Source: Sphaerochaeta associata
Lineage (GTDB): Bacteria > Spirochaetota > Spirochaetia > Sphaerochaetales > Sphaerochaetaceae
Direction: 5' to 3'
DNA length: 64,000 nt
Assembly: GCF_022869165.1 (NCBI RefSeq)
Contig: NZ_CP094929.1
Location: forward strand, 496,001 to 560,000
The notes beneath the pieces are model-generated. The model was not told the origin of the DNA and searched no databases. It was given only the letters and a program-made list of their open reading frames with translations. Positions within the stretch are counted from its first letter, which is position 1; every line of letters begins with the position of its first letter. Positions 26,486 to 45,341 of the stretch are shown piece by piece. A program made the translations under genes and the position numbers.

Positions 26486-28006
26486 ATGCCAAGACAAGTT
26501 GTGTTCATTATGACCGATACCACAAGAAAGGATATGCTGGGCTGCTACGGCGACAGTCGCATGCTGACACCCAATCTCGACAAGCTGGCCGGACAGGGCT
26601 TGCGCTACGAGCAGGCTTACTGCTGTCAGCCTGTCTGCGGACCGGCACGATCGGCCCTGTTTACCGGGACCTTTCCCCACTCCAACGGGGTGGTCTCAAA
26701 CAACCTGCCTTTGGGAGATAATGTTAAGACTCTCGGACAGAGGCTGAGGGACAACGGCATCCAAGCGGCCTATACCGGCAAGTGGCACCTCGATGGCGGG
26801 GATTATTTCGGTTTAGGACAGTGCCCGGATGGGTGGGATCCAGATGCGTGGTACGATATGCACAACTACCTTGAGGAACTTTCTGTAGAAGAGAGGCTTC
26901 GTTCACGAAAGTCCGAAACCGCGTTTGATGAGGACTGGGGGGCGGAAATGACCTATGCCCACCGTGTTTCGAACAAAGCGATAGGGTATGTGCAGGAGCA
27001 TGAAGGCCAGGATTTCTTCCTTGCAGTCTCCTATGACGAGCCCCATGGTCCGTTCATCTGTCCCGCTCCCTTCAACACCATGTACGATGGGTTCTCGTTT
27101 GAAGACAATCCCACCTTCCATGACAGCCTTCAGTCCAAGCCGATGCTCCAGCGCCTGTGGTCGGGGGACGACCTTCACAAGAGTCCCGAGGCGCTGCACG
27201 CGCCCTCGAAGATGCTCTCTCTTTACCTAGGATGCAACAGCTTCGTCGACCATGAGATCGGCAGGGTGTTGGATGAGGTGTATCGTCTTGCCCCGGATGC
27301 CTTGGTCATCTTTACCTCCGACCATGGCGATATGCTGGGCTCGCACCGCCTGCAGGCCAAGAATGCCGCTTTTTACAAGGAGATAACGAACATTCCGTTC
27401 ATTGTGAAGCCGGGCAGAGGCCATGAGCTCAATCGCAATGTCGTGGTCTCCCATCCTGCCAGCCACATCGATGTGACCCCTACGGTGCTGGATTACTTCG
27501 GCATCCCGATTCCCAAGCTTCTTGAGGGAAAAAGCATGCTCGTCCAGTTCGAAGACCCGACGGTTCAAGTCAATGAGCATGTCTATTGTGAATTCACCCG
27601 GTACGAGGTCGACCATGACGGTTTTGGAGGCTTGCAGATGATGCGTTCCATCACCGATGGTCGCTTCAAGCTGACGATCAACCTGATGGACTGCGATGAG
27701 CTCTACGATTTGGATTCTGACCCCCATGAGGTGGTCAACCTGATTGAAGATCCTAGCAGAAGGGAAATCAGAAACAAGCTTCACGACCTGCTGATCGAGC
27801 ACATGGACCGCACCCGCGATGTCTATCGAGGCTATCAGTGGGTTGCCCGGCCATGGCGGAACGACCGTCATCCAAACTGGCAGAACAGCGGCCTGACGCG
27901 CCAGCGTGAGAACGAGGAGTACGAGAGCCGGCAGTGGGACTATGATACCGGCCTTCCGATGGAGAGTGCTGTTCGGGGAAAAAAGCTCTACGATGTGAAG
28001 AAGTAA
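26486..28006 (+). CDS. Cys-type sulfatase, cytoplasmic
   Basis: A 506-residue arylsulfatase-family enzyme. The modification site is Cys51 in CGPARSALFTG (C-x-P-x-R), where the cysteine is converted to formylglycine. Metal ligands are visible in IMTDTTRKDMLGC (N-terminal Asp pair) and TSDHGDMLGSH (DH pair). A Cys rather than Ser at this place is the type matured by anSME; one such maturase lies at 29908. No signal peptide, so it should act on sulfate esters imported by the preceding ABC transporter. The C-terminal region (HPNWQNSGLTRQRENEEY) is family-like for N-sulfoglucosamine/iduronate-type sulfatases, but the substrate is unknown. Confidence 0.92.
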   Translation: MPRQVVFIMTDTTRKDMLGCYGDSRMLTPNLDKLAGQGLRYEQAYCCQPVCGPARSALFTGTFPHSNGVVSNNLPLGDNVKTLGQRLRDNGIQAAYTGKWHLDGGDYFGLGQCPDGWDPDAWYDMHNYLEELSVEERLRSRKSETAFDEDWGAEMTYAHRVSNKAIGYVQEHEGQDFFLAVSYDEPHGPFICPAPFNTMYDGFSFEDNPTFHDSLQSKPMLQRLWSGDDLHKSPEALHAPSKMLSLYLGCNSFVDHEIGRVLDEVYRLAPDALVIFTSDHGDMLGSHRLQAKNAAFYKEITNIPFIVKPGRGHELNRNVVVSHPASHIDVTPTVLDYFGIPIPKLLEGKSMLVQFEDPTVQVNEHVYCEFTRYEVDHDGFGGLQMMRSITDGRFKLTINLMDCDELYDLDSDPHEVVNLIEDPSRREIRNKLHDLLIEHMDRTRDVYRGYQWVARPWRNDRHPNWQNSGLTRQRENEEYESRQWDYDTGLPMESAVRGKKLYDVKK

Positions 28007-28011
28007 CAAAC

Positions 28012-28035
28012 AGGACCGGCTGCAAGGCTGGTCCT
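28012..28035 (+). terminator. Hairpin after the sulfatase gene
   Basis: AGGACCGGC and GCTGGTCCT form a nine-base stem (one G-T pair) with a TGCAAG loop, directly after the sulfatase stop. It closes the LacI/ABC/sulfatase operon; the T tract is poor. Confidence 0.6.
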
Positions 28036-28295
28036 GATTCAAATCCACACCTAGACAAGTCTGTCCTTTTTGTCCATCAACCATACAACTTTCAGCAAAA
28101 TCGCTGAAAATCTGCATTGCTTTCAAATTGGAGCAAGAGCGCACCGAAATATGATCCAATCGTTGTCTGTACTTGACTTCCATAACACCAAGCCAACGAT
28201 TTACGATGGATGGTCGATTAAGAAGCTGGTGGATGATAAATCATACTAAATAAATAGGGAATAACACAAAGATAGAAGCCTCGCTGATTGTTATT
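28036..28295. other. Intergenic stretch without a supported gene
   Basis: About 260 bases, AT-rich towards the right. It has a 45-codon open frame on the plus strand ending at the TAA near 28250 and the 5' part of a minus-strand open frame, but neither has a ribosome site or family resemblance. It may be decayed sequence; I see no clear function. Confidence 0.5.
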
Positions 28296-28376
28296 TTGCA
28301 GGTTTCTTTTTACACTCTCTATAGATATTCCATTGGTTTTTGCAGGTATGACGAAGAGCGACAGCTTTTCTGTCGC
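28296..28376 (+). promoter_or_regulatory. Promoter and 5' leader hairpin of the repeat lipoprotein gene
   Basis: TTGCAG (28296-28301) and TATAGA (28320-28325) are 18 bases apart. In the leader, GCGACAG-CTTTT-CTGTCGC (28358-28376) is a perfect seven-base hairpin ending one base before the AAGG that serves as ribosome site for ATG 28390. It could tune translation. Confidence 0.45.
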
Positions 28377-28389
28377 AAAGGACCCTGAT

Positions 28390-29865
28390 ATGAAACGAAT
28401 CAATGTGGTACGCACGATTTCTCTCGTGCTTCTGCTCTCTACTCTGTTCTTGGGCTGTGCAACCCCTATTGATCAGCAAGCTGTCCCGCCGGTTCCAGCA
28501 GCACCTGTAGAGGTTGAGCAGCAGAGCGAGGCTGTGGCGGTTGAAGAGCCGAAGCTTGCGATGGCCTCCATTGAACTACCTCCACGGTTTATACAATATC
28601 CTCCTGTTGTTCGATATGGAGAGATCATGGGGTTGGTCAATGAGACAGGGTACTCGATCAAGAGTTTCGACCTCTTCAATGACCGGATGTATCTTGCAAG
28701 CACACAAGCGCTGAATATGCTCTCTGAATCTCTTGGCGATGGGGAGCGGATGGTTATCGACCTGACGAAATTCCCTCTGCTCTCTGAAGAGATTCAGAAA
28801 CGTGACGGCTCAATCTTCACCTTCAATGCCAGCGACTGGGACGATGACCTGTATTGGGGGGAGTGGGATCCAAGCGAGGATTCTTGGAATTTGGTGCTTA
28901 CTTCCGATTCTCTGCTTCCGACATCGATGGACATTGATGTTGAATCCTTCGGCCCCTCGATTGTCATAGCCAACCGCAGCGGGTACCCCTTCGAGCGGCT
29001 GTATATTGAGAGGAAGAGCCCGAACGAGATGGATGGCAGTGAAACCAATCTGCTCGGAGAGCAACTGCTTTCAAGCGGACAGTTTGCCCGCATCCAGGTG
29101 GCTGACCTTGCCTACTTGCAGGAGTTCCTGACCTTCGATGCGTATGCAACGCTGACTATTACTGCCTTCGACACTGATGGAGATCGTTATACCCTGCTTT
29201 GGCATCCCACAACCGATGCTTGGTTCATCGAGCTCACCTTGGCAGAGCTGCAGTGGCCCGAGGGCGATCAGTTCTACCTGACGGTACAAAACCAGACCGG
29301 TCAGACGCTTTGGTATCTGTATGCTGTTCCCGACTCCTATTTTGTGGAAGGAGACTATGGTTCAGACCTTCTCGATTGGGACTTGATCTACGACTCTGAC
29401 GAGCTCACTGTGGATTTGGCCCAACTGGACTACCTGGATGAGGCTTTGCAGGGAGATAGCGATGAAGTCATTCACCTCATCGCCAAGGATGCCGATGAAG
29501 TTCTCTATCACAAGGAGTACTATCCCAATCGGGATATCGCTTATGTAGTATTCGAGGCGGAAGCAGCTTTGGAAGAAGCCGAAAGCCTCTCTCTGTACAA
29601 CGATACGCCTGCTGATTTGTGGTTTCTGTACTTGGCTACCGATGAGATGGTGCATGAGAAGAACTTTGGCAACGACCTGCTTCGTGACGGCATCTGGGAG
29701 GTGAAGGAAGAATTCACGTTCAAGGTAAGCCCTGCATTGGTGGAGAATAATCAGGTGTTGCACCTGTATGCCTATGATTACTTGGACAATGAGTACCATA
29801 AGGAGTGGAACGTCAGCGACGGTTGGACCCTTACGTTCAACGCCGATGACTTGAGTACGCAGTAG
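28390..29865 (+). CDS. Lipoprotein with four repeated domains, unknown function
   Basis: A 491-residue lipoprotein: MKRINVVRTISLVLLLSTLF then LGC, so lipidation at Cys23. After a proline/glutamate-rich linker (residues 26-60) come about four similar units of some 90-100 residues, near 80-170, 190-285, 293-390 and 395-491. Each begins with a short strand such as VNETGYSIKSFDLF, IANRSGYPFERLYI, VQNQTGQTLWYLYA or LYNDTPADLWFLYL and ends with a strand such as YHKEYYP or YHKEWNV. Very acidic throughout. I do not recognise the family. It lies between a sulfatase operon and the sulfatase maturase; a link is only positional. ATG 28348, in frame, is an alternative start but gives a poorer signal. Confidence 0.8.
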   Translation: MKRINVVRTISLVLLLSTLFLGCATPIDQQAVPPVPAAPVEVEQQSEAVAVEEPKLAMASIELPPRFIQYPPVVRYGEIMGLVNETGYSIKSFDLFNDRMYLASTQALNMLSESLGDGERMVIDLTKFPLLSEEIQKRDGSIFTFNASDWDDDLYWGEWDPSEDSWNLVLTSDSLLPTSMDIDVESFGPSIVIANRSGYPFERLYIERKSPNEMDGSETNLLGEQLLSSGQFARIQVADLAYLQEFLTFDAYATLTITAFDTDGDRYTLLWHPTTDAWFIELTLAELQWPEGDQFYLTVQNQTGQTLWYLYAVPDSYFVEGDYGSDLLDWDLIYDSDELTVDLAQLDYLDEALQGDSDEVIHLIAKDADEVLYHKEYYPNRDIAYVVFEAEAALEEAESLSLYNDTPADLWFLYLATDEMVHEKNFGNDLLRDGIWEVKEEFTFKVSPALVENNQVLHLYAYDYLDNEYHKEWNVSDGWTLTFNADDLSTQ

Positions 29866-29907
29866 TACTCGCTTGCGAATAATTTCGATACAGGGTATAC
29901 ACAGAAT

Positions 29908-31005
29908 ATGGAAACTCAACGATCGCAGCTGACGATGATGATCAAACCAGCGTCGGCTGCCTGTAACCTTGCTTGTGACTACTGCTTCTACCTCGATACA
30001 GCCCATCATCGAGAAATGGGGGTTCTTCCGTTGATGAAGAACGAGGTTGCCGATGCCATTATCCAAAAGAGCCTTGCAGAGGCAAAGCACTGCAGTTTTG
30101 TTTTCCAGGGTGGTGAGCCAACCTTGGCAGGCTTAGGGTTTTTTGAACGATTTGTAGAGCAGGTTGCTTTGCTCAAGAGTGAAGACCACACTGTTTCGTA
30201 TGCGTTTCAGACCAATGGACTGAAGCTGGACACAACATGGGCGCGTTTCTTCAAACAGCATGGGTTTCTCGTTGGAGTCTCTTTCGATGGAAGTCCGCGT
30301 CTTCACGATCTGCATCGTTTCGACGCTCAGAAGAGGGGAAGCGGCAGGTCGGTTGCAGCAACTATTGCCTTATTGAAGGAAGAAGACGTGCAGTTCAATG
30401 TCCTTTCAGTAGTGACCAACGAACTAGCCCAGAACATTAAACAGGCCTACAGCTACTTGGTCAATCATGAAGTGTACTATCACCAATATATTGCGTGCAT
30501 GGACCCGTTGCAGGATGAGAAGAGCTATCTTTCCCCCCAATCCTACGGCCGGTTCCTCAAGGAGTTGTTCGACCTGTGGTTTGCCTCTTGGCAGCAGGGG
30601 AAGCCGGTTTCAATCCGGTTTTTTGATAATCTGGTGGGGATGCTGCTCGGCTATCCCCCTGAAAGCTGTGATATGGGCGGGGTATGCTCGGCCAACTACG
30701 TCGTGGAGAGCAACGGCACTATCTATCCGTGCGACTTCTATTGCACTGATGACCAACTTTTAGGCTCTATTGTCACCAATTCTTTTGCAGAATTGGACGC
30801 CAGGCGTACAGAGCTTCGGTTCATAGAGGATTCTCCCAATCGCATCGATGATTGTGCCGCGTGCCCATGGCGAGTGCTCTGTCGAGGCGGGTGCAAGCGG
30901 TACCGCAATGAGACGGGATACAAGTACTGCTCCTCGATGCAGGAGTTTTTCCCGTACGCCATCCAGAGGCTTGAGATAGTGGCGCGGTCGGTGCAGAAGC
31001 AATAA
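29908..31005 (+). CDS. Anaerobic sulfatase-maturating enzyme (radical SAM)
   Basis: A 365-residue radical-SAM/SPASM protein. Cys19, Cys23 and Cys26 (CNLACDYC) bind the SAM-cleaving Fe-S cluster, followed by FVFQGGEPTLAG. The C-terminal SPASM region holds the auxiliary-cluster cysteines (CDMGGVCSANY, YPCDFYC, CAACPWRVLCRGGC, CSSM). Members of this anSME group oxidise the active-site Cys or Ser of sulfatases to formylglycine without oxygen, as needed in an anaerobe. Three Cys-type sulfatases are in the window (26486, 38426, 43893). The next gene is a TauE/SafE permease. Confidence 0.92.
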   Translation: METQRSQLTMMIKPASAACNLACDYCFYLDTAHHREMGVLPLMKNEVADAIIQKSLAEAKHCSFVFQGGEPTLAGLGFFERFVEQVALLKSEDHTVSYAFQTNGLKLDTTWARFFKQHGFLVGVSFDGSPRLHDLHRFDAQKRGSGRSVAATIALLKEEDVQFNVLSVVTNELAQNIKQAYSYLVNHEVYYHQYIACMDPLQDEKSYLSPQSYGRFLKELFDLWFASWQQGKPVSIRFFDNLVGMLLGYPPESCDMGGVCSANYVVESNGTIYPCDFYCTDDQLLGSIVTNSFAELDARRTELRFIEDSPNRIDDCAACPWRVLCRGGCKRYRNETGYKYCSSMQEFFPYAIQRLEIVARSVQKQ

Positions 31006-31019: not shown

Positions 31020-31817
31020 GTGGAAATACTGTTGGTTGTCATTACGTTTATAGCTACGGTCATCGGTGCCATCAGTGGTATCGGCGGCGGGGTGCTCATC
31101 AAGCCGGTCATGGATGCACTGGTCGATTATCCGGTAGCCACGATCAGCTTTCTCAGCGGCAATACGGTGCTTGCCATGACCGCCGTCTCGTTGCTTCGCA
31201 GCCGCAGGGACTCAATCAAAGTAGATGGCGTGGTGGGAACCCCGCTTGCCATTGGTGGTGCGGTCGGTGGAATTTTGGGAAAGCTGGTATTCTCAGCCAT
31301 CAAGGAGGCGTACCAGAATGATGCGCTGCTCGGCTTGGTACAGAACATCCTGATGGTCCTGCTCACCGTTACGGTGTTCTTGTATATCCTGAACAAGGCG
31401 AGGATCAAGACGCTGGCTGTTCGGAACAAGGCGCTTGCGTTGGCAGCCGGCTTGGTCCTGGGGCTGTTCTCCTCCTTTCTGGGAATCGGGGGAGGGCCGA
31501 TCAACATCATGTTCCTTTCCTACCTGTTCTCCATGGACAGCAAGCATGCGGCACTGAACTCGCTGTACATCATCTTTTGCAGTCAGGTGGCAAACCTCAT
31601 TGCCAATATTGTTCAAAACTGCGTTCCTGCGTTCGATGTGCTGCTTCTGCTCTCCATGATGGCAAGCGGTATTGTCGGTGCAATGACAGGGAGGTCGGTA
31701 TCAAAGAGGTTGGACAACGCACAGGTGGACAAGCTCTTCATGGCCCTGATGGTGGTCATCATCGTGCTCTCGCTGGGCAATGTGGTTAAGTTTGCGGGTG
31801 CTTACCAGGGATTCTGA
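31020..31817 (+). CDS. TauE/SafE family sulfite/anion exporter
   Basis: A 265-residue integral membrane protein with about eight spans in two related halves (VIGAISGIGGGVLIKPVMDA and LGLFSSFLGIGGGPINIM), the diagnostic G-I-G-G-G motifs of TauE/SafE. The family exports sulfite, sulfoacetate or similar anions. Located after the sulfatase maturase, it could remove sulfate or sulfite released by desulfation; this is inference. Start is a GTG at 31020 with GGAGGGG four bases upstream. Confidence 0.85.
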   Translation: MEILLVVITFIATVIGAISGIGGGVLIKPVMDALVDYPVATISFLSGNTVLAMTAVSLLRSRRDSIKVDGVVGTPLAIGGAVGGILGKLVFSAIKEAYQNDALLGLVQNILMVLLTVTVFLYILNKARIKTLAVRNKALALAAGLVLGLFSSFLGIGGGPINIMFLSYLFSMDSKHAALNSLYIIFCSQVANLIANIVQNCVPAFDVLLLLSMMASGIVGAMTGRSVSKRLDNAQVDKLFMALMVVIIVLSLGNVVKFAGAYQGF

Positions 31818-31825
31818 TTTTCAAA

Positions 31826-32485
31826 TCACAGCATGTTTTTCAAAGGCTTGTACAGCAGTGCAAGGAAGAACATCCAAGGGATGAGTGAGAGGATGGAGAA
31901 TACCAAGCCTATCATTCCCGCTGTTGAGGGAATGCTCATCAGTATGCCGCTTATCAGGCCTATGACGCCGATTTCTCTTGGAAGGTCGCTCTTTATGAGG
32001 GCATACGAGATGAGAATCAGGCAGATTCCGTTGAGGATGTAGTAGGAGTTGAAGGCCGTTCCCCTCCACTGCAGGATGAGGGATTCAGCAATGGTCAGCC
32101 AGGTTTGTTGTTCAATAAGGGTGGAGGCTTGTGCGTAGTTACGCTGTGCCTCCCACAGTTCGAAGGCGGGGTTGCTGCTATAGTAGGCTGCGATGCCGAT
32201 GTACCCCAGGAGCAGGGCGATCTGCATCAGGGCACGGTGCTTTTCCTTTAGGATTTCATACAGACCCAGATATACCAGGGCAACCAAGGCGTTGTCGATG
32301 AGGTAGAGCAGGTCCATCTCGATGAGGCCAAGGAACCAGTTGCTTGCAAACAAGTCAAACCAGAGCTTTGCTTCGCTTGGTGGACGGTGCAGGCTGAAAA
32401 CTATAATTTGTGTTGGAATGAGCACCAGCATGGCAAGGCTGCAGAAAGCAGCGGTTTTTCCGAGAAGGCGTGGACTGTTCTCCAT
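31826..32485 (-). CDS. Multi-pass membrane protein, DUF4386-like
   Basis: A 219-residue membrane protein with six or so hydrophobic segments. Length and layout (short N-terminus, LFASNWFLGLIEMDLLYLID, paired C-terminal spans ending in a basic tail) recall DUF4386 proteins, whose role is unknown. Start at ATG 32485 with GGGAGGA upstream. Convergent with the exporter gene with eight bases between; divergent from the sensor kinase. Confidence 0.65.
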   Translation of the reverse strand: MENSPRLLGKTAAFCSLAMLVLIPTQIIVFSLHRPPSEAKLWFDLFASNWFLGLIEMDLLYLIDNALVALVYLGLYEILKEKHRALMQIALLLGYIGIAAYYSSNPAFELWEAQRNYAQASTLIEQQTWLTIAESLILQWRGTAFNSYYILNGICLILISYALIKSDLPREIGVIGLISGILMSIPSTAGMIGLVFSILSLIPWMFFLALLYKPLKNML

Positions 32486-32553
32486 ACACTTCCTCCCTTG
32501 TGTTGAGCAGACGATACAACAGTAGCGCTCCACTGTCTAGGTGGAGGACAACG

Positions 32554-32582
32554 TTGACGCCATCTGAATCGGCCTGTATAGT
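32554..32582 (+). promoter_or_regulatory. Promoter of the sensor kinase gene
   Basis: TTGACG (32554-32559) and TATAGT (32577-32582) are exactly 17 bases apart. Transcription should begin near 32589, only about ten bases before ATG 32599, with no ribosome site in between. Confidence 0.65.
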
Positions 32583-32598
32583 GACTTGCACAAAACCT

Positions 32599-34011
32599 AT
32601 GAAAAGCATTCTTCGTCTTGTCGCACTTAGTTTCATTCTTCTCCTGTTGTTTCTGGGCATCAGTCTCTCGGTTTTCTTTGTCTTGGGAACCTTGCAGGAT
32701 CGTGCGCATCGGGCTTTTCTGGATAAGAACGAGGAGGTTCTCACGCTTTCAAGGACTGTCAGTCAGCTGAACGTCCTTTCCAGCACCATGTTGCGCTCTT
32801 CCTCCACCGAGCTCATTCCCGACTACCGCAATGCCATGGCCTTGCTTGATCAGCAGATTGAGCAGGTTCGCTTGATTCCCGAGGTCGATGCCGATCTCGA
32901 TGCAATACTCAGGAGGCTTGCATACTTCAATGATTACCAGCGGATACTTCTCAATGATTCTTCATTAATCCCCTTTGAGACATTCACCTACATTCGTGAC
33001 AGTGTCATCCAACACCAGATGGCTGTCGATGAGCTGGTTTTGGGAATTTATCGATTATCCAGTGAAACTTTTTCCGCCTATGAAAACCGGCTTGGCACGA
33101 TCGAATACTCGTTCTGGCTTCTGCTGATAGCCAGCATTTTCATGATTGTCCTTACGGGAACCCGTTATGCACGGCGGATCGGGTTGCAGATCAAACAGAT
33201 CCAGCATGCCGCCCATCGGCTTTCAGAACGCGATTGGGCAACAGCCGATATACCCAGTTCCGGGTTTCTTGAATTGGATGAACTTGCCACCGGTATGAAC
33301 AAGATGAAGCGGGAGATTTTACTTTCAATCCAGAAGTTGCACGCACAAGCTGAGAAGGAGAAGGAGCTCGGTGAAAAGCTCATAGAGTCTGAGAAACGTG
33401 ATAAACTGCTGATGCAGGCACAGCTTTCTGCACTTCGGGCCCAGATCAATCCGCACTTTCTCTTCAATGCCCTGGACATCATCGGCAAGGTCGCCTTTCT
33501 CAACAATCCTGAACTGGCTATGGAGTTGATCGAGGCCATCTCCAAGATTCTCCGGTACTCCTTGGACGCTACCGACCAATTGGTGCCGCTTTCTGAAGAG
33601 TTGTCCATCATCCAACACTACCTGTTGTTACAGAAGGTTCGGTTCGGCGAGCGGGTAGTCATCGAGTATGCAGTTGCAGAGGAAGCCAGGCAGGCTCGAA
33701 TGCCGGCAATGTTGCTCCAACCTATTTTGGAGAATTGCTTCAAGCATGGGATGAAAGCACAAGCCTCGTTGCATATACGCCTAGAGGCCGATCTTGAGCA
33801 AGACATATTGAAGGTGGTCGTTCATGATACCGGGGAAGGCTTTGAAACAGGGGAGATTGTGGCCGCCCCTTCCCCTCACATCGGACTGAATAATGTCTCC
33901 TCCCGATTGAGCCTGCGTTACAAGCGGGACGATTTGTTCAGCATAGTCAGCAAGAAACATGCCTTCACCACGGTGACGTTGCGTATTCCCCAGCAAGAGG
34001 AGCCTGCATGA
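32599..34011 (+). CDS. Sensor histidine kinase, YesM type
   Basis: A 470-residue membrane kinase. One span at residues 5-30, an extracytoplasmic domain of about 140 residues, a second span near 175-195 (SFWLLLIASIFMIVL), a HAMP linker, then the His_kinase domain with the phosphorylation site near residue 286 (QINPHFLFNALDIIG) and an HATPase domain (LLQPILENCFKHGM, VHDTGEGFE). It overlaps the response-regulator gene by four bases. YesM/YesN pairs usually sense sugars outside the cell and turn on neighbouring transporters; the TRAP and sulfatase genes downstream are the likely targets. The start has no ribosome site and the leader is very short. Confidence 0.9.
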   Translation: MKSILRLVALSFILLLLFLGISLSVFFVLGTLQDRAHRAFLDKNEEVLTLSRTVSQLNVLSSTMLRSSSTELIPDYRNAMALLDQQIEQVRLIPEVDADLDAILRRLAYFNDYQRILLNDSSLIPFETFTYIRDSVIQHQMAVDELVLGIYRLSSETFSAYENRLGTIEYSFWLLLIASIFMIVLTGTRYARRIGLQIKQIQHAAHRLSERDWATADIPSSGFLELDELATGMNKMKREILLSIQKLHAQAEKEKELGEKLIESEKRDKLLMQAQLSALRAQINPHFLFNALDIIGKVAFLNNPELAMELIEAISKILRYSLDATDQLVPLSEELSIIQHYLLLQKVRFGERVVIEYAVAEEARQARMPAMLLQPILENCFKHGMKAQASLHIRLEADLEQDILKVVVHDTGEGFETGEIVAAPSPHIGLNNVSSRLSLRYKRDDLFSIVSKKHAFTTVTLRIPQQEEPA

Positions 34012-36588: not shown

Positions 36589-36596
36589 GTTTCAAA

Positions 36597-36619: not shown

Positions 36620-36641
36620 GATCTATGAAGGGAGACCATCA

Positions 36642-37133
36642 ATGCTTACTTCGTTATCAGCCGGACTGCAAACCGTATCCCGGTATCTGTATACTGTCTT
36701 GGAGCTGCTTGCAAAGCTCATTTTCGTGATTATGGTCGTCTCGGTTTCCATAGCTGTCGTCGGCAGGTTCGTCTTCAGCAAGTCTCCGAGCTGGACCGAG
36801 GAAGTCGGTATCCTGAGCCTTGTTTGGCTCTGCTTTCTGACCGCAGCAATGGGCATACGCGATGGATCGCACATGCGCATGACAATCATCGAGTACATCT
36901 TCAGCCCCAAGGTTTGTAATGTAATGCATCGCATTGCTTATGTAGTATTGCTTGTGTTGTATATGCTGTTTATCAAAATTGGACTTGATGCAATTCTCAT
37001 GATGTCAAAATCCATTCTTCCCTCAACCAAGCTCCCTTTGTCAGTCATGTACGGCTCTGTGTTCGTATCGGGGATTCTGGGACTTGTAATGGCACTTGCC
37101 AAGTTATTTGACAAGGAGAGTTTTAAATTATGA
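36642..37133 (+). CDS. dctQ: TRAP transporter small membrane subunit, DctQ type
   Basis: A 163-residue protein with four predicted spans, the usual size and topology for DctQ. Family-like segments are FVFSKSPSWTEEVGILSLVW and AAMGIRDGSHMRM. It joins DctM, whose start overlaps its stop by four bases, to form the sodium-driven membrane unit. Confidence 0.9.
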   Translation: MLTSLSAGLQTVSRYLYTVLELLAKLIFVIMVVSVSIAVVGRFVFSKSPSWTEEVGILSLVWLCFLTAAMGIRDGSHMRMTIIEYIFSPKVCNVMHRIAYVVLLVLYMLFIKIGLDAILMMSKSILPSTKLPLSVMYGSVFVSGILGLVMALAKLFDKESFKL

Positions 37134-38416
37134 ATGTACAGGCAATACTCTTGCTTCTAGGATCGTTCGCTGTTCTTATCTTAGGTGGTATTCATATTGC
37201 TTATGCAATGATCGCCTCGGCGGTATTCACCATCGTGTTCCTCAATATTTCTTTAATTGCCGTGGTGACCACCCTGATCGACGGTATCAACGGGTTCACC
37301 TTTCTTGCCATCCCGTTCTTCGTACTGGCAGGGGAAATTATGGCACAAGGGGGTATCTCGGACCGCCTCATCAAGCTCTCCAATGCACTGGTAGGTTGGA
37401 TGCGCGGCGGCCTTGCAATGGTGAACATCATCGCCAGTGTCTTTTTCGGCGGTATCAGCGGAAGTGCAACTGCCGATACTGCTTCATTGGGATCGATTCT
37501 CATTCCTATGATGAAGAAAAGCGGATACGACGGGGAGTTCTCCACTGCAGTCACCATGGCCAGTTCAATCGAGGGGCTTTTGATTCCACCCAGCCACAAC
37601 ATGATCATCTATGCCATGGCTGCAGGAGGTCTTTCCATCGGAAAACTCTTTCTGGGGGGCTTGGTTCCTGGTCTGTTGCTTGCCCTGGCGTTGATGATTT
37701 TCTCGTTCTTTGTCTCGAGAAAACGCAAATACCCCAAGGGGGATGCCTTCCATGTGAAGAATGTGCTTGTCTCGCTCAAGGACTCCATCTGGGCTCTGAT
37801 GACCATCCTTATCGTAGTGGTGGGAGTTATAACAGGGGTCTTCACAGCTACAGAGTCTGCTGCAATATCAACTGTATGGGCTTTTATTGTGACCTTCTTC
37901 ATTTATAAGGAGATTCCGCTGAAAGCGTTCGGAGGAATCCTGAAAAAGGCTCTGAAGGTCTTGTCCAACATTCTGATTCTTATTGCTGCTGCGGGCACTT
38001 TTGGATTTGTGGTTGCTTACCTGCAGATTCCAACTTTCATCTCAGATCTTATCCTGGGAGTCACTTCCAACAAAATCATTATACTCTTGCTTGTCAACCT
38101 GATACTCCTTCTGCTTGGTATGATCATGGGTATGGCATCGATCATAGTTATCATGACCCCGATCCTGCTCCCCATCGTAACCCAGCTTGGGATGGACCCG
38201 ATTCAGTTTGGTGCCATCATGATTCTCAACTGCGGTATCGGCTTGATCACACCTCCAGTCGGCGGCGTCCTCTTTGTAGGCAGCGGTATTTCGGGTATCA
38301 AGATCGAGCGGCTCACCAAGGAGCTGCTGCCGTTCTATCTGGTCATGGTCTTGGTGCTTCTGATGGTGACCTTCATCCCTCAGATCACCATGTTCGTTCC
38401 CAATTTTCTCATGTAG
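37130..38416 (+). CDS. dctM: TRAP transporter large membrane subunit, DctM type
   Basis: A 428-residue membrane protein with about twelve spans. Diagnostic DctM segments are present: IPFFVLAGEIMAQGGISDRL, FFGGISGSATADTASLGSIL and IPPSHNMIIYA, and late NCGIGLITPPVGGVLFVGSG. It carries the cation-coupled translocation path. The sulfatase gene starts ten bases after its stop. Confidence 0.93.
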   Translation: MNVQAILLLLGSFAVLILGGIHIAYAMIASAVFTIVFLNISLIAVVTTLIDGINGFTFLAIPFFVLAGEIMAQGGISDRLIKLSNALVGWMRGGLAMVNIIASVFFGGISGSATADTASLGSILIPMMKKSGYDGEFSTAVTMASSIEGLLIPPSHNMIIYAMAAGGLSIGKLFLGGLVPGLLLALALMIFSFFVSRKRKYPKGDAFHVKNVLVSLKDSIWALMTILIVVVGVITGVFTATESAAISTVWAFIVTFFIYKEIPLKAFGGILKKALKVLSNILILIAAAGTFGFVVAYLQIPTFISDLILGVTSNKIIILLLVNLILLLLGMIMGMASIIVIMTPILLPIVTQLGMDPIQFGAIMILNCGIGLITPPVGGVLFVGSGISGIKIERLTKELLPFYLVMVLVLLMVTFIPQITMFVPNFLM

Positions 38417-38425
38417 GAGGACTCC

Positions 38426-39877
38426 ATGGCGCAGAACCATGTATTATTTATTTGTACCGACCATTGGCCTGCAGCATTGCTGGGAAGTCATGGCAATAGC
38501 GATATAATGACACCGACTCTCGATGCGTTGGCACGCGATGGCATAGATTTCACGCAATGCTACAGCACCTGTCCTGTGTGCATTCCCGCACGGCGTTCGA
38601 TGATGACCGGCACGTTCCCCAAGACCCATGGAGACCGTGTATACAGCGACCACATGGAGATGCCGGACATTCCCACGCTGGCACAGACCTTCCGCGATGC
38701 CGGGTATCAGGCGTACGGGGTGGGCAAACTTCATGTCTATCCCCAACGCAACCGTATCGGGTTCGACGATGTAGTGTTGATGGAGGAGGGACGTTACGAG
38801 CTGGGCGTGGTGGATGACTACCAGGTCTGGTTGGGGGAAAATGGGTATGCAGGGGCAGAGTTCGCCCACTCTATGGGCAGCAATACCTATTACACCAGGC
38901 CGTGGCACCTGAACGAGGAGGCTCATCCTACTACATGGGCCACCAAACAGATGTGCAGGACCATCAAGCGCATCGATCCCACCCGTCCAGGTTTTTTCTA
39001 CATCTCCTACCAAGCCCCCCATCCTCCGCTTGTCCCGCTGCAGACGTATCTGGATATGTATGACGAGCCTTCCATGCCGCTTCCTGTTTTGGGTGATTGG
39101 GAGAAAGAGCACCCGATCTACCAAGCATTGCAGGAGCTGGCTGATGAGTACTCAGAGCGAGACATTAGAAGGGCGCTCAGGGCGTTCTATGCGCAGTGCA
39201 CCCATATCGATCACCAGATACGCCTGCTCATCGGTACCCTGAGGGAATGCAATCTTCTGGATGACACCATCATTGTCTTTACCAGCGACCACGGGGATAT
39301 GCTGTTCGATCATGGCATGGTGGCAAAGCGCTTGTTCTACGAACAGGCAGCCCATGTTCCCTTGCTTTTTTCCGGTAAACCGCTGCACAAGCGACGGGGT
39401 GAGGTCAATGACAAACTGGTCTGCCTGGAAGACATCATGCCGACTCTGCTGTCCCTGTGCGGTATCAGCATTCCTGCTTCAGTCGAAGGCATCGATATCT
39501 GTTCAGAAACCCGACGTGACTACCTCTATGGAGAGTGCGGCGAGGGCGAGAAAGCAACGCGTATGATTCGAAAGGGGGAGCATAAGCTGATCTACTACCC
39601 GTGGGGAAACCATCTGCATTTGTTCAACCTTCAGCAAGACCCTGACGAGTTGCACGATTGTGTACATGATGGCCAGTACGCTGCAATATTGAAGGAGCTG
39701 GAACAGCTGTTGATAACCAACCTTCACGGATCAGACCTATCCTGGGTAAAGGACGGGAAGCTGATAGGGCTTGGTGAGAAGGAGTTTGAACCAAAGCCGC
39801 ACTACGGATTGTACAACCAGCGGGGACTTCATTGGCCTGCTCCGAGTGGGTATTCCAATATTGGAAAGAATGCTTGA
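38426..39877 (+). CDS. Cys-type sulfatase of the TRAP operon
   Basis: A 483-residue sulfatase. Modification site Cys52 in CIPARRSMMTG; metal-binding Asp in FICTDHWP and TSDHGDMLFDH. No signal peptide, so it should act in the cytoplasm on material brought in by the TRAP transporter. Requires formylglycine formation by the maturase at 29908. Within the family it resembles choline-sulfatase/arylsulfatase-like enzymes of about 480-500 residues; the substrate is unknown. Ribosome site AGGAGG. Confidence 0.92.
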   Translation: MAQNHVLFICTDHWPAALLGSHGNSDIMTPTLDALARDGIDFTQCYSTCPVCIPARRSMMTGTFPKTHGDRVYSDHMEMPDIPTLAQTFRDAGYQAYGVGKLHVYPQRNRIGFDDVVLMEEGRYELGVVDDYQVWLGENGYAGAEFAHSMGSNTYYTRPWHLNEEAHPTTWATKQMCRTIKRIDPTRPGFFYISYQAPHPPLVPLQTYLDMYDEPSMPLPVLGDWEKEHPIYQALQELADEYSERDIRRALRAFYAQCTHIDHQIRLLIGTLRECNLLDDTIIVFTSDHGDMLFDHGMVAKRLFYEQAAHVPLLFSGKPLHKRRGEVNDKLVCLEDIMPTLLSLCGISIPASVEGIDICSETRRDYLYGECGEGEKATRMIRKGEHKLIYYPWGNHLHLFNLQQDPDELHDCVHDGQYAAILKELEQLLITNLHGSDLSWVKDGKLIGLGEKEFEPKPHYGLYNQRGLHWPAPSGYSNIGKNA

Positions 39878-39882
39878 TTGAT

Positions 39883-39908
39883 GCACCGCCTCCTTTCGGG
39901 GGCGGTGC
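39883..39908 (+). terminator. Hairpin terminator of the TRAP-sulfatase operon
   Basis: GCACCGCCTCC and GGGGGCGGTGC form an 11-base GC-rich stem (one T-G pair) with a TTTC loop, just after the sulfatase stop. The T tract is weak. It marks the border to the lower-GC block. Confidence 0.7.
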
Positions 39909-39983
39909 TGCTTGGTATGAAAGGTTTCGATACTGTAAGGTTTGTTCTCCTATATTTTTTGTTTCATAGACAGCAAAAATCTC

Positions 39984-40031
39984 TTGACTTCATAAGAGGT
40001 TCGATTTACTATCTCTCTATAGTTATTGACA
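39984..40031 (+). promoter_or_regulatory. Promoter region of the cyclase/Tct/sulfatase operon
   Basis: TTGACT (39984-39989) and TACTAT (40007-40012) are 17 bases apart. CTCTT and AAGAG (39981-39985, 39994-39998) flank the first box as an inverted repeat. CTATAGTTA at 40017-40025 is the reverse complement of TAACTATAG in the palindrome at 46690-46706, and is followed by another TTGACA (40026-40031). The stretch to 40144 is very AT-rich leader without a gene. Confidence 0.5.
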
Positions 40032-40144
40032 GAATGTAAAAAACTAATAAGAAATACACGTTTTTTATGCCTGAAAATTGCAGAAACCATAACTAAATTG
40101 TGATAGAAATTAACAAAAAGAAAAAAACAAAAAGAGGGAATTAG

Positions 40145-40816
40145 ATGAAGCCTTACAAAGTAATTGATCTGTCTAAAATCTTAGATCCGGCAACAGAGAC
40201 GAGGCGGTGTAAAATCCGTAGGTTCAACACTGGTGGACCAATTCCTGATTTTCATACAGATATGGATCTCACAACTCACCTTGGAACCCATGTGGAGACT
40301 CCCTATCATCACAATGATAATTGGAAGGATGTCGTTCAGCTTCCCATCGAGCATTTCCTTGGGCGCTGTGTATATTTGAATTTCACTCATCTTGCTCCCA
40401 ATTCCTATATTACAGCAGACGATCTCGAGAAGGTCTGCAGAGGAAGGGTGGGTAAGAATGATGTTGTGATTCTCGATTCTCCCCATAAGCTTCCCCCCTT
40501 CACACCGAAGACCAATACTGCAGAAGACAAGCGTCTCTTTATTAGCAGAGAGACTGCTCAGTGGCTAGCCGATATCGGCGTGAAATGCGTGGGTTTCGGC
40601 GACGGGGTTTCCATCGAAAACTCGAATAAAGATGTCTGTGCATTCCACGATGTATTGATGGAACAAGATGTGACGTTTTTGGAAGTGCTGAAAAATCTCG
40701 ACCAACTTAGCGAAGAGGTGTTTTTCATTGCATTTTTACCGCTTCCGATCAAGGGTATTGATTCAAGTCCAGTTCGTGTTGTCGCAATTGAAGGTTTGCC
40801 TGGATTTGGCGCCTGA
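40145..40816 (+). CDS. Cyclase-family hydrolase (kynurenine formamidase-like)
   Basis: A 223-residue member of the Cyclase family (PF04199). The metal-binding signature is HLGTHVETPYHH (HxGTHxDxP type, here with Glu), preceded by VIDLSKILDPAT. The family hydrolyses N-formylkynurenine, isatin or cyclic amide/ester compounds using a divalent metal. It leads a block with a Tct transporter and a sulfatase, so it may open a ring or ester in the imported compound; the true substrate is unknown. Ribosome site AGAGGGA. Confidence 0.85.
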   Translation: MKPYKVIDLSKILDPATETRRCKIRRFNTGGPIPDFHTDMDLTTHLGTHVETPYHHNDNWKDVVQLPIEHFLGRCVYLNFTHLAPNSYITADDLEKVCRGRVGKNDVVILDSPHKLPPFTPKTNTAEDKRLFISRETAQWLADIGVKCVGFGDGVSIENSNKDVCAFHDVLMEQDVTFLEVLKNLDQLSEEVFFIAFLPLPIKGIDSSPVRVVAIEGLPGFGA

Positions 40817-40841
40817 TAAATAGTGTTAAAGGAGTTTATGT

Positions 40842-41819
40842 ATGAAAAAGGCATTGATGGTAGTACTGAGCATTCTTATGGCGTGTTCCCTTCTTTTTGC
40901 TGCAGGTTCCTCTGAAGCTGCTGTAGCTGCTGATTTGAAATGGCCTGAAAGACCGATTCAGGTGTATGTGGGAGCTAATGCAGGTGGGGGAATCGATACT
41001 GCAGCACGTCTTATGGGAAAGTATCTTGAGAAAGAACTTGGTGCAACAATCGTAGTTTCGAATATGTCCGGTGGAGCCGGAAGCATCGCTGCAACGAAGG
41101 TAAAGGAGTCCAAGCCCGATGGTTATACTATGCTGGTCTGTCATGAAGCTCTGCTTACCAACAAGATCAGTGGTATTACAGATTTTGACTATGGTGCTTT
41201 TACTAGTGGCGGCATTGCCTTGAAAGTGTTCACAACCTGTCTCTTGAGCAGGGATTACAAATCTTTCGATGAACTGTTGGCTGCTGCCAAGAGTAATCCT
41301 GGAAAAATTAAGTTCGGAACAGAAGCGGCAACCAATGATACTCATATCATTGCTATGATGCAAAAGGAATTCGGTACTAAAATTCAGATTGTTGACTCTG
41401 GTGCCATTTCAAACCAGATAGCTTCGATGATGGGTGGCCATATCGATTTCATGAAGTCACCTGTTGGTTTGGTAAAGGATTATGTGAGAACTGGTGAATT
41501 CAATTTGCTTGGATTCTTCAATGATAACAGGAACTCAGATTATCCTGATATTCCTACCCTGAAGGAAAAAGGACTTCCCTTTGTCGTGGATAAGTTCTTC
41601 TATGCAGGATTCCCAAAAGGGACTCCCAATGAGATTATCGAAAAATTCTCTTCTGCTCTCGAAAGAGTCTCTCAGAATCCAGAATTCATTGCAGATGCCA
41701 AAAAAATTGACTACGCAGTTGAATATGTGAGTCCTGCTGAGATCCCGGCTTATTTTGAAGCAGCAAAAAAGAATCTTGTTGAGTATCAGAAGATCTATGA
41801 CGAGGTCATGGGCAACTAA
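40842..41819 (+). CDS. Tripartite tricarboxylate-type transporter binding protein, TctC
   Basis: A 325-residue periplasmic binding protein. Signal peptide MKKALMVVLSILMACSLLFA with mature start AGSSEAAV. TctC/Bug features: ADLKWPERPIQVYVGANAGG, GIDTAARLMGKYLE, and SKPDGYTMLVC. Bug-type proteins bind carboxylates and diverse small acids. First of the three transporter genes. Confidence 0.9.
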   Translation: MKKALMVVLSILMACSLLFAAGSSEAAVAADLKWPERPIQVYVGANAGGGIDTAARLMGKYLEKELGATIVVSNMSGGAGSIAATKVKESKPDGYTMLVCHEALLTNKISGITDFDYGAFTSGGIALKVFTTCLLSRDYKSFDELLAAAKSNPGKIKFGTEAATNDTHIIAMMQKEFGTKIQIVDSGAISNQIASMMGGHIDFMKSPVGLVKDYVRTGEFNLLGFFNDNRNSDYPDIPTLKEKGLPFVVDKFFYAGFPKGTPNEIIEKFSSALERVSQNPEFIADAKKIDYAVEYVSPAEIPAYFEAAKKNLVEYQKIYDEVMGN

Positions 41820-41851
41820 TTTCTACGATGAAGGAGAAGGGTGGAATACAT

Positions 41852-42358
41852 ATGAATAGCAAGAAATATAATAATCTAATTTCTGGACTAGTTGTTATGG
41901 TATTAGGAGTTGCATATTATATCCAATCCTTCTCCATTCGTGTTACACGTGTTGGGGGTGACTACAACTCCCGGATGTTCCCCCAACTAATCGCTATCGT
42001 ATTCATCGTGATGGGGCTCCTTCTGGCTCTTCGAAATGTGCGTTCTCTTTTCGAGAGACCAACTGTTCAAGATCAGCCGGATACAGGGGCGGTGGCTGCA
42101 AAAATATCTTTTTGGGCACTCCATAAGAAAGTGATAATCATCTTTTTGATTTCTTTTGCCTATGTAGGATTGATGATGGTTTTCGGATACCTGATTGCTA
42201 CTCCGATATTTATGTTTTGCTTCATGCTGATTTTGACTCCCAAGACACTGAACCATAGGTTTGTGTTCAATATTGTGCTTTCTCTCGCTTCATCCTTTCT
42301 GTTTTATGTAATGTTCCGCTATGGATTCACCATGATTCTTCCGAAAGGCATTTTTTAA
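41852..42358 (+). CDS. Tct transporter small membrane subunit, TctB
   Basis: A 168-residue protein with four spans, as usual for TctB. The start is set at ATG 41852, after AAGGAGAAGGGTGG; an ATG at 41828 would put that site inside the gene. It is followed 11 bases later by the large subunit. Confidence 0.85.
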   Translation: MNSKKYNNLISGLVVMVLGVAYYIQSFSIRVTRVGGDYNSRMFPQLIAIVFIVMGLLLALRNVRSLFERPTVQDQPDTGAVAAKISFWALHKKVIIIFLISFAYVGLMMVFGYLIATPIFMFCFMLILTPKTLNHRFVFNIVLSLASSFLFYVMFRYGFTMILPKGIF

Positions 42359-42369
42359 AGGAGTCAAGT

Positions 42370-43863
42370 ATGTTTGATATGTTTGTAACCGGCTTTTCCA
42401 TGATTGCGAATCCAATGGCATATCTATTGATATTGATTGGCTCGATTCTTGGGATTTTCTTTGGTGCTGTTCCAGGAATGACGTCTTCTATGGGAATTGC
42501 ACTCGTATTACCCGTAACATACAGTATGGGTATCGTTGAGGGGATGGCCATACTGCTGGGTATCTATATCGGCAGTATTTCAGGAGGTCTGATTACAGCG
42601 ATTCTTTTTAACATCCCTGGGACTCCTGCGTCCATAGCAACAACCTTTGATGGATATCCCATGGCTATGCGGGGAGAGGGTGGAAAAGCCCTACGAGTTG
42701 GCATGTTCTATTCGTTCCTTGGTGGAATGTTCAGCTTGCTGGTTTTGTTCTATGTTTCTCCGCCCTTGGCAAAATTCGCCTTGAAATTCGGTCCTGTTGA
42801 ATACTTCTCCATTGGTATTCTCTCATTAACCTTGATTGCCAGTCTAAGCGGCGATGATTTAGTGAAAGGCATTATTAGTGCGATGATCGGTGTTGCTCTG
42901 ACTACCATCGGGATGGCTCCCATCGATAGTGTGAAGCGCTTTACGTTCGGAATCGGGGCCCTGAATGGTGGTGTACAGCTTTTACCGGTTCTTATCGGTG
43001 TATATGCAGTATTGGAAATTTTGAAGTCTGCTGAAAATAGTGATGCAGGATATGGGGAGATTCCTGCATTCAAAGCGAAAGGCTTAGGCGTCAGTCTGAA
43101 AGAGTTCAAACAACAATTTGTAAATTTCGTCCGTTCTTCAGTCGTAGGTACTGTTATTGGCATTCTCCCGGGTTTGGGTGCCACCATTTCCAATATTCTT
43201 GCATATTCCATTGCCAAGGACTCTAGCAACCACCCGGAGAAGTTCGGTACTGGAGTAGTAGATGGCCTTATTGCTTCCGAGACCGCAAATAATGCTGTCT
43301 CCGGCGGTGCAATGATTCCAATGCTTACCATGGGTATTCCTGGTGATGCTGGTACCGCTATGTTGCTTGCAGCCTTCATGTTGCACGGCATTACGCCGGG
43401 ACCTCTGTTGTTTCGGGAGCATGGCCCCATCGTGTATTCAATTTTTGCAATTCTGATTGTTGCGAATGTCTTTACCCTTATCATTGAAATGTATGGATTG
43501 AAAGTATTTCTGAAGCTCTTGGATATCCCGAAGCAGTTTCTCTACCCGATCATCATTGTACTTGCAACCATCGGCGCATATGGATTGAACAACAGATTGT
43601 TCGACGTACTCTGTATCTTCATCTTTGCCGTGTTGGGATATGTTTTGGACAAGAATGAATTCCCATTGGCTCCACTTGTACTGGGATTTGTCATTGGCCC
43701 GATCATCGAACTGAATCTGAGAAGAGGTTTGATGTCCACCTATGGTAGTTTTGGGGCCTTCTTTACCAGACCGATTTCTGCTGTAGTGCTCGTCATGACG
43801 TTGGTTCTTCTTGTGTTCTCATCACTGAAGAGCCGAAAGAGGCAGAAAACAGCACGCACTTGA
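42370..43863 (+). CDS. Tct transporter large membrane subunit, TctA
   Basis: A 497-residue membrane protein with about eleven spans. Conserved TctA segments: GIFFGAVPGMTSSMGIALVL, YIGSISGGLITAILFNIPGT, and GGAMIPMLTMGIPGDAGTAM. Drives sodium- or proton-coupled uptake with TctC and TctB. The sulfatase gene follows after 29 bases. Confidence 0.92.
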   Translation: MFDMFVTGFSMIANPMAYLLILIGSILGIFFGAVPGMTSSMGIALVLPVTYSMGIVEGMAILLGIYIGSISGGLITAILFNIPGTPASIATTFDGYPMAMRGEGGKALRVGMFYSFLGGMFSLLVLFYVSPPLAKFALKFGPVEYFSIGILSLTLIASLSGDDLVKGIISAMIGVALTTIGMAPIDSVKRFTFGIGALNGGVQLLPVLIGVYAVLEILKSAENSDAGYGEIPAFKAKGLGVSLKEFKQQFVNFVRSSVVGTVIGILPGLGATISNILAYSIAKDSSNHPEKFGTGVVDGLIASETANNAVSGGAMIPMLTMGIPGDAGTAMLLAAFMLHGITPGPLLFREHGPIVYSIFAILIVANVFTLIIEMYGLKVFLKLLDIPKQFLYPIIIVLATIGAYGLNNRLFDVLCIFIFAVLGYVLDKNEFPLAPLVLGFVIGPIIELNLRRGLMSTYGSFGAFFTRPISAVVLVMTLVLLVFSSLKSRKRQKTART

Positions 43864-43892
43864 TCTTTATACATTTCTCCAAGGAGTTATCG

Positions 43893-45341
43893 ATGTCGAA
43901 TGTTCGGCCTAAAAATATGATTGTGATCATGAGCGATCAGCATAACAAACATATGCTGGGTTGCTATGGAAATCCCGTAATAGAGACACCAAATATTGAT
44001 GCTCTGGCAACCAGGGGCGTAAGGTTTACGGATGCATACTGCAATAATCCTGTCTGTGTCCCGTCGCGTTCCAGCATGGTAACTGGGCAATACTCGCATA
44101 CACATGGATATTGGGACAATGCTCATGCGTATGGAGGCGGTGAAGACAGTTTTGGTACAAAATTGCACCAAAATGGATACACTGTGACTACAATCGGCAA
44201 AATGCACCTGCGTAATGATTCTGCTGAGACAGGATTTCACGACCAACGAATTCCATTGCATATGGTCAATGGAATCGGGGATGTGTATGGTTCGATCAGA
44301 GATAAGAAGATTGCAAGACCACAATTTTTGAAAGCTTTGGAATCTGCAGGTCCTGGAGAAACTGATTACACAAGGTATGATCGAGAAATTACACGGCAGG
44401 CACGTGAGTATCTTTTGCACGAAGCTCCTTCCAAAGAAAAACCCTTCGTCCTCTACTTAGGATTTGTTTCACCTCATTTTCCACTTACAGTACCACAAGA
44501 GTATTTTGATAAATATATTAATCAATCACTGGTTAAACCTATACAATCTGATCCTGAACAGTGGCCCTCTCATCCTGTACTCAATGATTATCGTCGGTAT
44601 TGTAATATGGAGCATGTTTCGTCAGAGGTAGCACAGAGAGCTTTAGCTACCTATTACGGTATGTGCACATTTCTTGACGACCAAATCGGCACTGTCCTCA
44701 ATGCATTGCAGGAAGCAGGCTTGGAAGAGGATACAAGGATTCTCTACACAACCGACCATGGCGATACTATGGGAGAACATGGGCTATTTTTTAAATCCAC
44801 CATGTATGAAGGCAGTGTAGGCGTTCCCATGATTCTTGCTGGTTCTGACCTTCCCCAACATACAGTAAGCAGTGCATTAGTGTCTCTCATTGATCTTTAT
44901 CCAACGATTCTCGATTCGGTCGGGCTTTCTTCTTTCTATGCAGAGGAGCGTCTTCCAGGTAATTCTCTCTTTGAGGTACTAATAGATCCAAGCCTGCATA
45001 ATCGACCGGTTTTTTCAGAGTATCATGCTTTTGGGTCCTACACATCCCAATTCATGCTGCGATTAGGCCCCTATAAATATATCCATTATGTGGGGGAACC
45101 GAGTCAGCTTTTCAACTTGGAAAATGATCCTGATGAATTGCATGATCTTTGTTCGCAAAGCGCATATGCTGGAGTACTTGAAAGTATGGAACAACACCTT
45201 AGATCAATCGTTGATCCCGAAGCTCTGGCGCAACAAGCAAAAGCCAGTCAGTTGCAGCTTTTGGAAACCTATGGTGGAGAGGAGGAGTTCTTAAAAGGCT
45301 TTAAACCCGCACTCTTTTCTCCGATACCAAAAGGTGTGTAA
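43893..45341 (+). CDS. Cys-type sulfatase of the Tct operon
   Basis: A 482-residue sulfatase. Modification site Cys55 in CVPSRSSMVTG; metal-site segments VIMSDQHNKHMLGCYGNP and TTDHGDTMGEHG. Like the other two sulfatases here it has no signal peptide and follows transporter genes, so cytoplasmic desulfation of an imported acid is likely. Base composition is more AT-rich than for the sulfatases at 26486 and 38426. Start at ATG 43893 after AAGGAG. Confidence 0.92.
   Translation: MSNVRPKNMIVIMSDQHNKHMLGCYGNPVIETPNIDALATRGVRFTDAYCNNPVCVPSRSSMVTGQYSHTHGYWDNAHAYGGGEDSFGTKLHQNGYTVTTIGKMHLRNDSAETGFHDQRIPLHMVNGIGDVYGSIRDKKIARPQFLKALESAGPGETDYTRYDREITRQAREYLLHEAPSKEKPFVLYLGFVSPHFPLTVPQEYFDKYINQSLVKPIQSDPEQWPSHPVLNDYRRYCNMEHVSSEVAQRALATYYGMCTFLDDQIGTVLNALQEAGLEEDTRILYTTDHGDTMGEHGLFFKSTMYEGSVGVPMILAGSDLPQHTVSSALVSLIDLYPTILDSVGLSSFYAEERLPGNSLFEVLIDPSLHNRPVFSEYHAFGSYTSQFMLRLGPYKYIHYVGEPSQLFNLENDPDELHDLCSQSAYAGVLESMEQHLRSIVDPEALAQQAKASQLQLLETYGGEEEFLKGFKPALFSPIPKGV

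Follow-up and report, generated by a model that had tools for sequence, protein, structure and literature searches.

Intracellular desulfation behind ABC, TRAP and Tct importers is predicted from a sulfatase island of Sphaerochaeta associata

Introduction

Research on sulfatases has dwelt mainly on the enzymes that Bacteroidetes and Planctomycetes-type degraders export, and the release of sulfate is viewed as extracytoplasmic. Most characterized sulfatases of B. theta are periplasmic (PMC10154612), and Kiritimatiellales F1 and F21 have 354 and 339 sulfatases with signal peptides, mostly exported (PMC6388578). Import followed by desulfation is already known from two systems. A pneumococcal island encodes a ROK protein, a PTS, a sulfatase, a sulfatase-modifying factor and a TauE-like protein; deletion of the ROK gene raises importer and sulfatase transcripts, and the sulfatase activity could not be measured (PMC3283741). 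In the glycosaminoglycan (GAG) cluster of Streptobacillus moniliformis, the ABC system Smon0120–0123 imports whole sulfated disaccharides and the sulfatase Smon0126 is predicted to be cytoplasmic (PMC5430744).

Here we analyse 64,000 nucleotides of the complete 3.55 Mb genome of Sphaerochaeta associata (positions 496001–560000; hereafter the window). Like the pneumococcal island, the window brings together importer, sulfatase, maturase, ROK repressor and a TauE-family neighbour, but it has ABC, TRAP and Tct importers where the pneumococcal island has a PTS and a single sulfatase. The Streptobacillus cluster shares parts (ABC importer, sulfatases and GH88) with another locus of the same genome (L042); unlike the window, it is GAG-specific with lyases and GH88, has neither TRAP nor Tct and has no described exporter. 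The Kiritimatiellales and Bacteroides sulfatases belong to S1, as do those of the window, but are mostly exported. We propose an import-first model in which three cassettes surround one maturation-and-export hub, to which we assign a probability of about 0.78. What is new is import-first desulfation as the sole strategy of a whole family, served by ABC, TRAP and Tct importers, and the exchange of TauE for ChrA exporters beside the maturase.

Three leaderless sulfatases behind three importers

The window encodes three Cys-type sulfatases, A (CGPAR; 26486–28006), B (CIPAR; 38426–39877) and C (CVPSR; 43893–45341), that score 182, 135 and 197 bits against PF00884, far above the cut-off of 25 bits (coordinates are window positions, and all genes given with a range lie on the + strand). 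The fold score, a C/S-x-P/A-x-R motif (catalytic Cys C51/C52/C55 in A/B/C) and metal-site Asp and Lys/His residues (D11/12/15, D279/288/288 and K292/301/301) make them S1 family members that are predicted to hydrolyse sulfate esters. None has a leader, as derived from reading frames: the longest frames extend the called starts by just 4/0/11 residues and the first metal-ligand Asp lies at residue 11/12/15, which leaves no space for a signal peptide. The importer genes stop 10–30 bp before the called sulfatase starts and would overlap the sulfatase genes if the longer starts were taken. Sulfatases A, B and C therefore probably act in the cytosol.

Sulfatase A closes an operon with a LacI-type regulator (22292–23335; PF00356/PF13377; same position in L102, L103, L105–L107 and L114), a CUT1-type sugar-binding protein (23366–24646; PF01547/PF13416) and two ABC permeases (24655–25611 and 25615–26472), whose orthologues in relatives are 64–90% and 70–96% identical, respectively, and keep their order. 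Upstream of sulfatase B lie a sensor histidine kinase (32470–34011; PF06580; start uncertain), a response regulator with an AraC-type HTH (34008–35483; assigned from sequence and conserved order), the TRAP binding protein DctP (35575–36588; PF03480, 235 bits), DctQ (36642–37133) and DctM (37130–38416), the last two with in-order homologues in relatives at 37–38% and 58–64%. Sulfatase C follows a complete Tct transporter, composed of the binding protein TctC (40842–41819; PF03401, 112 bits), TctB (41828–42358; assigned by position, with homologues in L046, L051 and L125) and TctA (42370–43863; own-genome TctA match at genome position 538424), and is itself followed by a ROK-family regulator (45394–46656; PF00480; a neighbour conserved in L046 and L051). 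A cyclase gene at 40145 was left out of the Tct cassette because it is not kept in L046 or L051. Between sulfatases A and B, as the first-pass annotation had stated, are the sulfatase maturase anSME (29908–31005) and a TauE/SafE-family protein, the proposed sulfate exporter (31020–31817). A predicted lipoprotein gene between sulfatase A and anSME (28288–29865; start uncertain) has homologues at the equivalent place in L102, L107 and L283, and Pfam and NCBIfam profile searches with its product returned zero matches. The motifs, gene calls and gene order of that annotation were correct, including the position of each leaderless sulfatase directly 3′ of an ABC, TRAP or Tct importer, except that the ABC operon does not itself include an ATPase gene.

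The layout across the genome and the family

The genome encodes eight PF00884 sulfatases, all Cys-type and leaderless. The five outside the window lie behind importers of the ABC type (two sulfatases at L042, one each at L043 and L045) or of the TAXI-type TRAP class (L044). The first-pass annotation had noted the sulfatase–importer layout at three of its eight occurrences. One of these loci, L042, combines an ABC importer and two sulfatases with GH88 and a heparinase-II/III-like lyase, an arrangement expected, by analogy, of a pathway that degrades sulfated disaccharides internally. Seven of the eight sulfatases have an importer gene no more than 150 bp upstream, compared with 7 of 342 other genes (~2%) drawn as background from 20 sampled stretches of the same genome (Fisher p ~2e-10). 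No exported sulfatase was detected among the eight, and approximately 140 sulfatases sampled from the family gave no credible signal peptide; the one hydrophobic leader candidate, L207, has an internal start that directly precedes the conserved region. Within the family sample, an importer gene immediately precedes 57 of 135 sulfatases, and 98 of 130 have an importer within 4.5 kb, fractions whose true values are uncertain given that the sample is tilted to high-scoring matches and to orthologues of A and B. About one quarter have no recognized importer within 4.5 kb, in a search that covered ABC, TRAP and Tct systems. Absence of leaders and adjacency to importers both support the earlier proposal that intact compounds are imported and desulfated inside the cell.

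A chance neighbourhood, or simple accretion in a transporter-rich genus, could in principle give such pairs, given that TctA occurs in 9 copies in this genome and in about 5 per genome across the family, and that two Burkholderiales loci (L050 and L054) have orphan TctC genes beside sulfatases that could be there by chance. The ~2% background rate against seven of eight sulfatases speaks against chance, as do three pairings kept in order across genera and one across phyla, and we consider this explanation the least credible of those weighed here.

Conservation and exchange of the pairings

Orthologues of sulfatase A (70–89% identity) occur in 17 other family genomes, and the ABC–sulfatase A operon is retained across the genus. 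The order histidine kinase, response regulator, DctPQM, sulfatase B recurs in other genera, in a total of five genomes (L120, L121, L123, L124 and L130). TctC–TctB–TctA–sulfatase C–ROK is retained in another genus of the family (L046) and in a Lachnospiraceae metagenome-assembled genome (L051), each with 55% identity for sulfatase C and 66% for TctA. All three pairings are thus ordered alike across genera at 37–66% protein identity, and one of them across phyla; the co-localization looked for in relatives is present. In a 144-member sulfatase tree, 33 changes of importer label are required, compared with 79 when labels are shuffled. The TctAs linked to sulfatases, that of the window among them, form approximately three clades and need 4 label changes compared with 15.5 shuffled, a separation that may be favoured by the choice of top PF01970 matches as the unlinked TctA set. 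On these comparisons, importer–sulfatase pairings appear to have been kept for long times.

The clustering of transporter class on the sulfatase tree would also fit the proposal of the first-pass annotation that each class marks a different substrate chemistry, with sugars for ABC, uronates for TRAP and small acids for Tct. The ABC binding protein is of the sugar type, and the DctP and TctC families bind organic acids. The sulfatase B lineage runs against this: its orthologues (49–64% identical) follow DctPQM in five of the relatives sampled, whereas in three others they adjoin Tct, namely behind TctCBA (L125), behind another Tct–sulfatase pair (L119) and between TctA and TctC (L129). Moreover, the window TctA, the partner of sulfatase C, shares a clade with the TctAs of L125 and L129, such that one TctA clade serves relatives of both B and C, and another sister pair on the sulfatase tree (L223 and L224) is split between Tct and TRAP. 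Because one sulfatase lineage pairs with either class, the step from transporter class to substrate chemistry is weakened and we regard it as unlikely, although it is the strongest of the alternatives weighed here. As judged from the trees and gene orders, transporter class and sulfatase lineage seem to be loosely coupled.

One maturase for eight sulfatases

The protein at 29908 is the sole anSME match in the complete genome. It has the radical SAM motif CX3CX2C, as CNLACDYC, near the N terminus, and PF04055 and PF13186 (SPASM) domains. The anSME models rank first by a wide margin (NF010321, 357.6 bits; TIGR03942, 332.1 bits; next non-anSME family, 182), with scores that do not reach the NCBI equivalog cut-offs of 441 and 349.45 bits. 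It is therefore filed as a divergent anSME-like maturase, an assignment supported by co-occurrence with sulfatases: of 119 genomes, 55 have both and 11 are discordant (p 6e-21). FGE was rejected as a second maturase, given that the only PF03781 protein in the genome does not have the paired catalytic Cys that FGE requires. The notion of one shared maturase holds in that the genome has a single anSME, which must serve all eight sulfatases instead of the three originally assigned to it.

An exchangeable exporter beside the maturase

The TauE/SafE-family protein is a PF01925 member (110.1 bits; cut-off, 32.6). In all 18 genus genomes with anSME, an anion exporter is encoded directly 3′ on the same strand, a TauE in 5 and a ChrA pair (PF02417) in 13; outside the genus, no exporter was found directly 3′ of anSME. 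TauE and ChrA were exchanged at least four times on the anSME tree, also when only well supported branches are counted, and in the sister genome G023 the window TauE is replaced in place by a ChrA pair. Close TauE orthologues are limited to the five genomes with anSME–TauE, plus a 55% copy elsewhere in G092. The ChrA pair is not exclusive to anSME, as members of its CHR clade are also encoded by genomes that do not have anSME. As unrelated exporters were repeatedly exchanged in place, the slot is suggested to serve a single purpose. Sulfite and sulfonates are moved by TauE-family proteins, and chromate is a mimic of sulfate; sulfate is therefore the natural candidate cargo, and by this analogy TauE and ChrA would export it as the ion. 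TauE and CHR families carry several anions.

Cytosolic sulfatases serve sulfur supply in aerobic bacteria, as with the sulfate-ester ABC systems of Pseudomonas, and an ester could likewise be imported here for its sulfate, which would then be assimilated. PF01507 (CysD/CysH type, sulfate reduction) is, however, absent from the genome and present in 14 of 14 control genomes; released sulfate is therefore unlikely to be assimilated. With an anion exporter 3′ of the maturase genus-wide in addition, we rejected sulfur scavenging, which we consider very improbable. The same two observations, the TauE/ChrA exchange at anSME and the absence of PF01507, favour the earlier suggestion that the released anion is exported.

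The link between exporter and desulfation has exceptions. G063 (99% complete) has anSME–TauE and no detected sulfatase, and the ChrA pair persists in G002, a genome that encodes neither a sulfatase nor anSME, so the exporter is not always coupled to desulfation; in G071 the ChrA pair is beside anSME remnants only. That TauE and the paired short ChrA proteins are interchangeable exporters of cytoplasmic sulfate, dedicated to intracellular desulfation, and that Tct (and TRAP) clades import sulfate esters, is a tentative proposal to which we give slightly less than even odds. The open-licence papers searched yielded no report of sulfate esters as Tct substrates, and no paper linking Tct and sulfatase, ChrA and sulfatase, or Sphaerochaeta and sulfatase.

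Origin of the island

In G023 (sulfatase A, 89%) gene order is identical to that of the window through anSME, after which come two ChrA genes and a DUF4386 gene; the amidohydrolase gene found at 46746 in the window lies two genes past the latter. The block 32470–46656 was missing from G023, L104, L115 and L116 when the loci were compared. Sulfatase B has no other close match in the sampled genus, sulfatase C has only one in the family, and the Tct part has 43.6% G+C compared with 50.3% (s.d. 2.9) in genome windows of equal size. Given its absence from relatives, the few close matches and the low G+C, the TRAP and Tct cassettes were probably added beside a pre-existing maturase and exporter. 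Direct repeats sought at the borders of the added block were not found. In four other genomes of the genus (L103, L105, L110 and L114), a different Tct–sulfatase cassette lies between sulfatase A and anSME.

Candidate substrates

The best solved sequence match of sulfatase B is BT1918 (S1_46; 245.8 bits over 446 residues), a GlcNAc-3-O-sulfatase (PMC10154620) that is periplasmic and encoded by an orphan gene of a PUL system (PMC10154612), in contrast to the leaderless sulfatase B; an E. faecium arylsulfatase is also among its nearest solved relatives. GlcNAc binding in S1_46 GlcNAc-3-sulfatases involves two Tyr, an Arg and an Asn. The nearest folds to sulfatase C are choline sulfatases (6fny: Z 33.4, r.m.s.d. 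3.6, 422 aligned residues, 28% identity), with carbohydrate sulfatases within ~1.5 Z. As the model is moderate (pLDDT 68.9, pTM 0.79), these matches serve just to name relatives. Despite the closeness in fold to BetC choline-sulfatase, the gene context differs and the choline-sulfatase assignment was rejected, as TIGR03417 (cut-off, 433.45) scores 285.6 for C, 193.9 for B and 182.4 for A. A single-sequence model of DctP (mean pLDDT 36.8) was set aside; the solved DctP proteins closest to the window DctP are probably uronate binders.

Could the enzymes be formylglycine-dependent hydrolases of phosphonate or phosphate esters? The PMH/arylsulfatases 4upi, 4upl and 2vqr are among the nearest solved relatives, and the metal-site signature cannot tell such hydrolases from sulfatases. 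The best solved match of sulfatase B is nevertheless a characterized carbohydrate sulfatase, the PehA-family score is 164 against a cut-off of 900, and linkage to TauE (sulfite/sulfonate) or ChrA (chromate, a sulfate analogue) fits sulfate and not phosphate. We regard this identity as improbable and retain sulfatases as the preferred assignment. Overall, the most probable substrates are sulfated sugars or sugar acids; we lean towards sulfated monosaccharides or sugar acids as TRAP and Tct cargo and sulfated sugars as ABC cargo.

Proposed mechanism

In the import-first model, ABC, TRAP and Tct importers would each carry a small sulfate ester, still intact, into the cytosol, where the sulfatase encoded directly behind each importer would cut off the sulfate. 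The local regulator (LacI, two-component pair or ROK) would presumably switch its own cassette, and all eight sulfatases would have their active-site Cys turned into formylglycine by the single anSME. As the usual route of sulfate reduction is not open to the cell, sulfate would accumulate internally and would be removed by the exporter made with anSME (TauE here, the ChrA pair in the sister species). The gain to the cell would thus be carbon rather than sulfur. The ABC–sulfatase A–anSME–exporter unit may represent an old genus core, to which TRAP–sulfatase B and Tct–sulfatase C would have been added in this lineage.

Implications

A family that has essentially all of its sulfatases inside the cell has to take up sulfated anions and get rid of sulfate, and gene neighbours therefore have strong predictive value. 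They yield candidate ligands for Tct and TRAP binding proteins that are still orphans, and they offer sulfate efflux as a physiological hypothesis for TauE and for the CHR proteins, which are known in connection with chromate.

Further sulfatase loci of the same genome

The S. associata genome carries further Cys-type sulfatases outside the window. At an ABC-linked locus (L042, G000:C1:76001-96000; 4414-11424), two sulfatase genes lie behind the importer together with genes for an unassigned 381-aa protein, a GH88 enzyme and a heparinase-II/III-like lyase. No leader was seen on this lyase, and depolymerisation may therefore also take place inside the cell. A second locus combines a TAXI-TRAP importer with a sulfatase (L044, G000:C1:741001-760500). 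Around it lie genes for two LarA-type racemases, for a hydroxyisobutyrate-type and an iron alcohol dehydrogenase, and for a second TauE. The racemase, dehydrogenase and TauE neighbours suggest sulfated hydroxy acids for this locus.

Active-site and gene-order variants

One relative of sulfatase B, at L129 (7805-9277, minus strand), has serine at the catalytic cysteine position (SIPAR) and adjoins Tct genes; the L209 sulfatase is likewise Ser-type (SMPAR). Across L129, L119 and L125, relatives of sulfatase B are combined with Tct genes in three distinct layouts, one of which places the sulfatase between TctC and TctA. In 10 sampled genomes (genus g11, plus g16 for L196), the conserved sulfatase directly before the maturase, anSME, has C-x-A-x-R in place of C-x-P-x-R (L168, L169, L175, L178, L182, L183, L185, L188, L191 and L196).

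A predicted lipoprotein with no family match found (window 28288-29865) lies between sulfatase A and anSME, and relatives keep it in this gap. The genome G002 still has the lipoprotein, having lost both sulfatase A and anSME. The only anSME of the sister genome G023 is split (L102, G023:C1:476001-495000; 10547-12852) by a stretch of approximately 1.2 kb with a transposase-like ORF (10859-11887). Three sulfatases are nevertheless still present, making G023 a candidate natural maturase knock-out.
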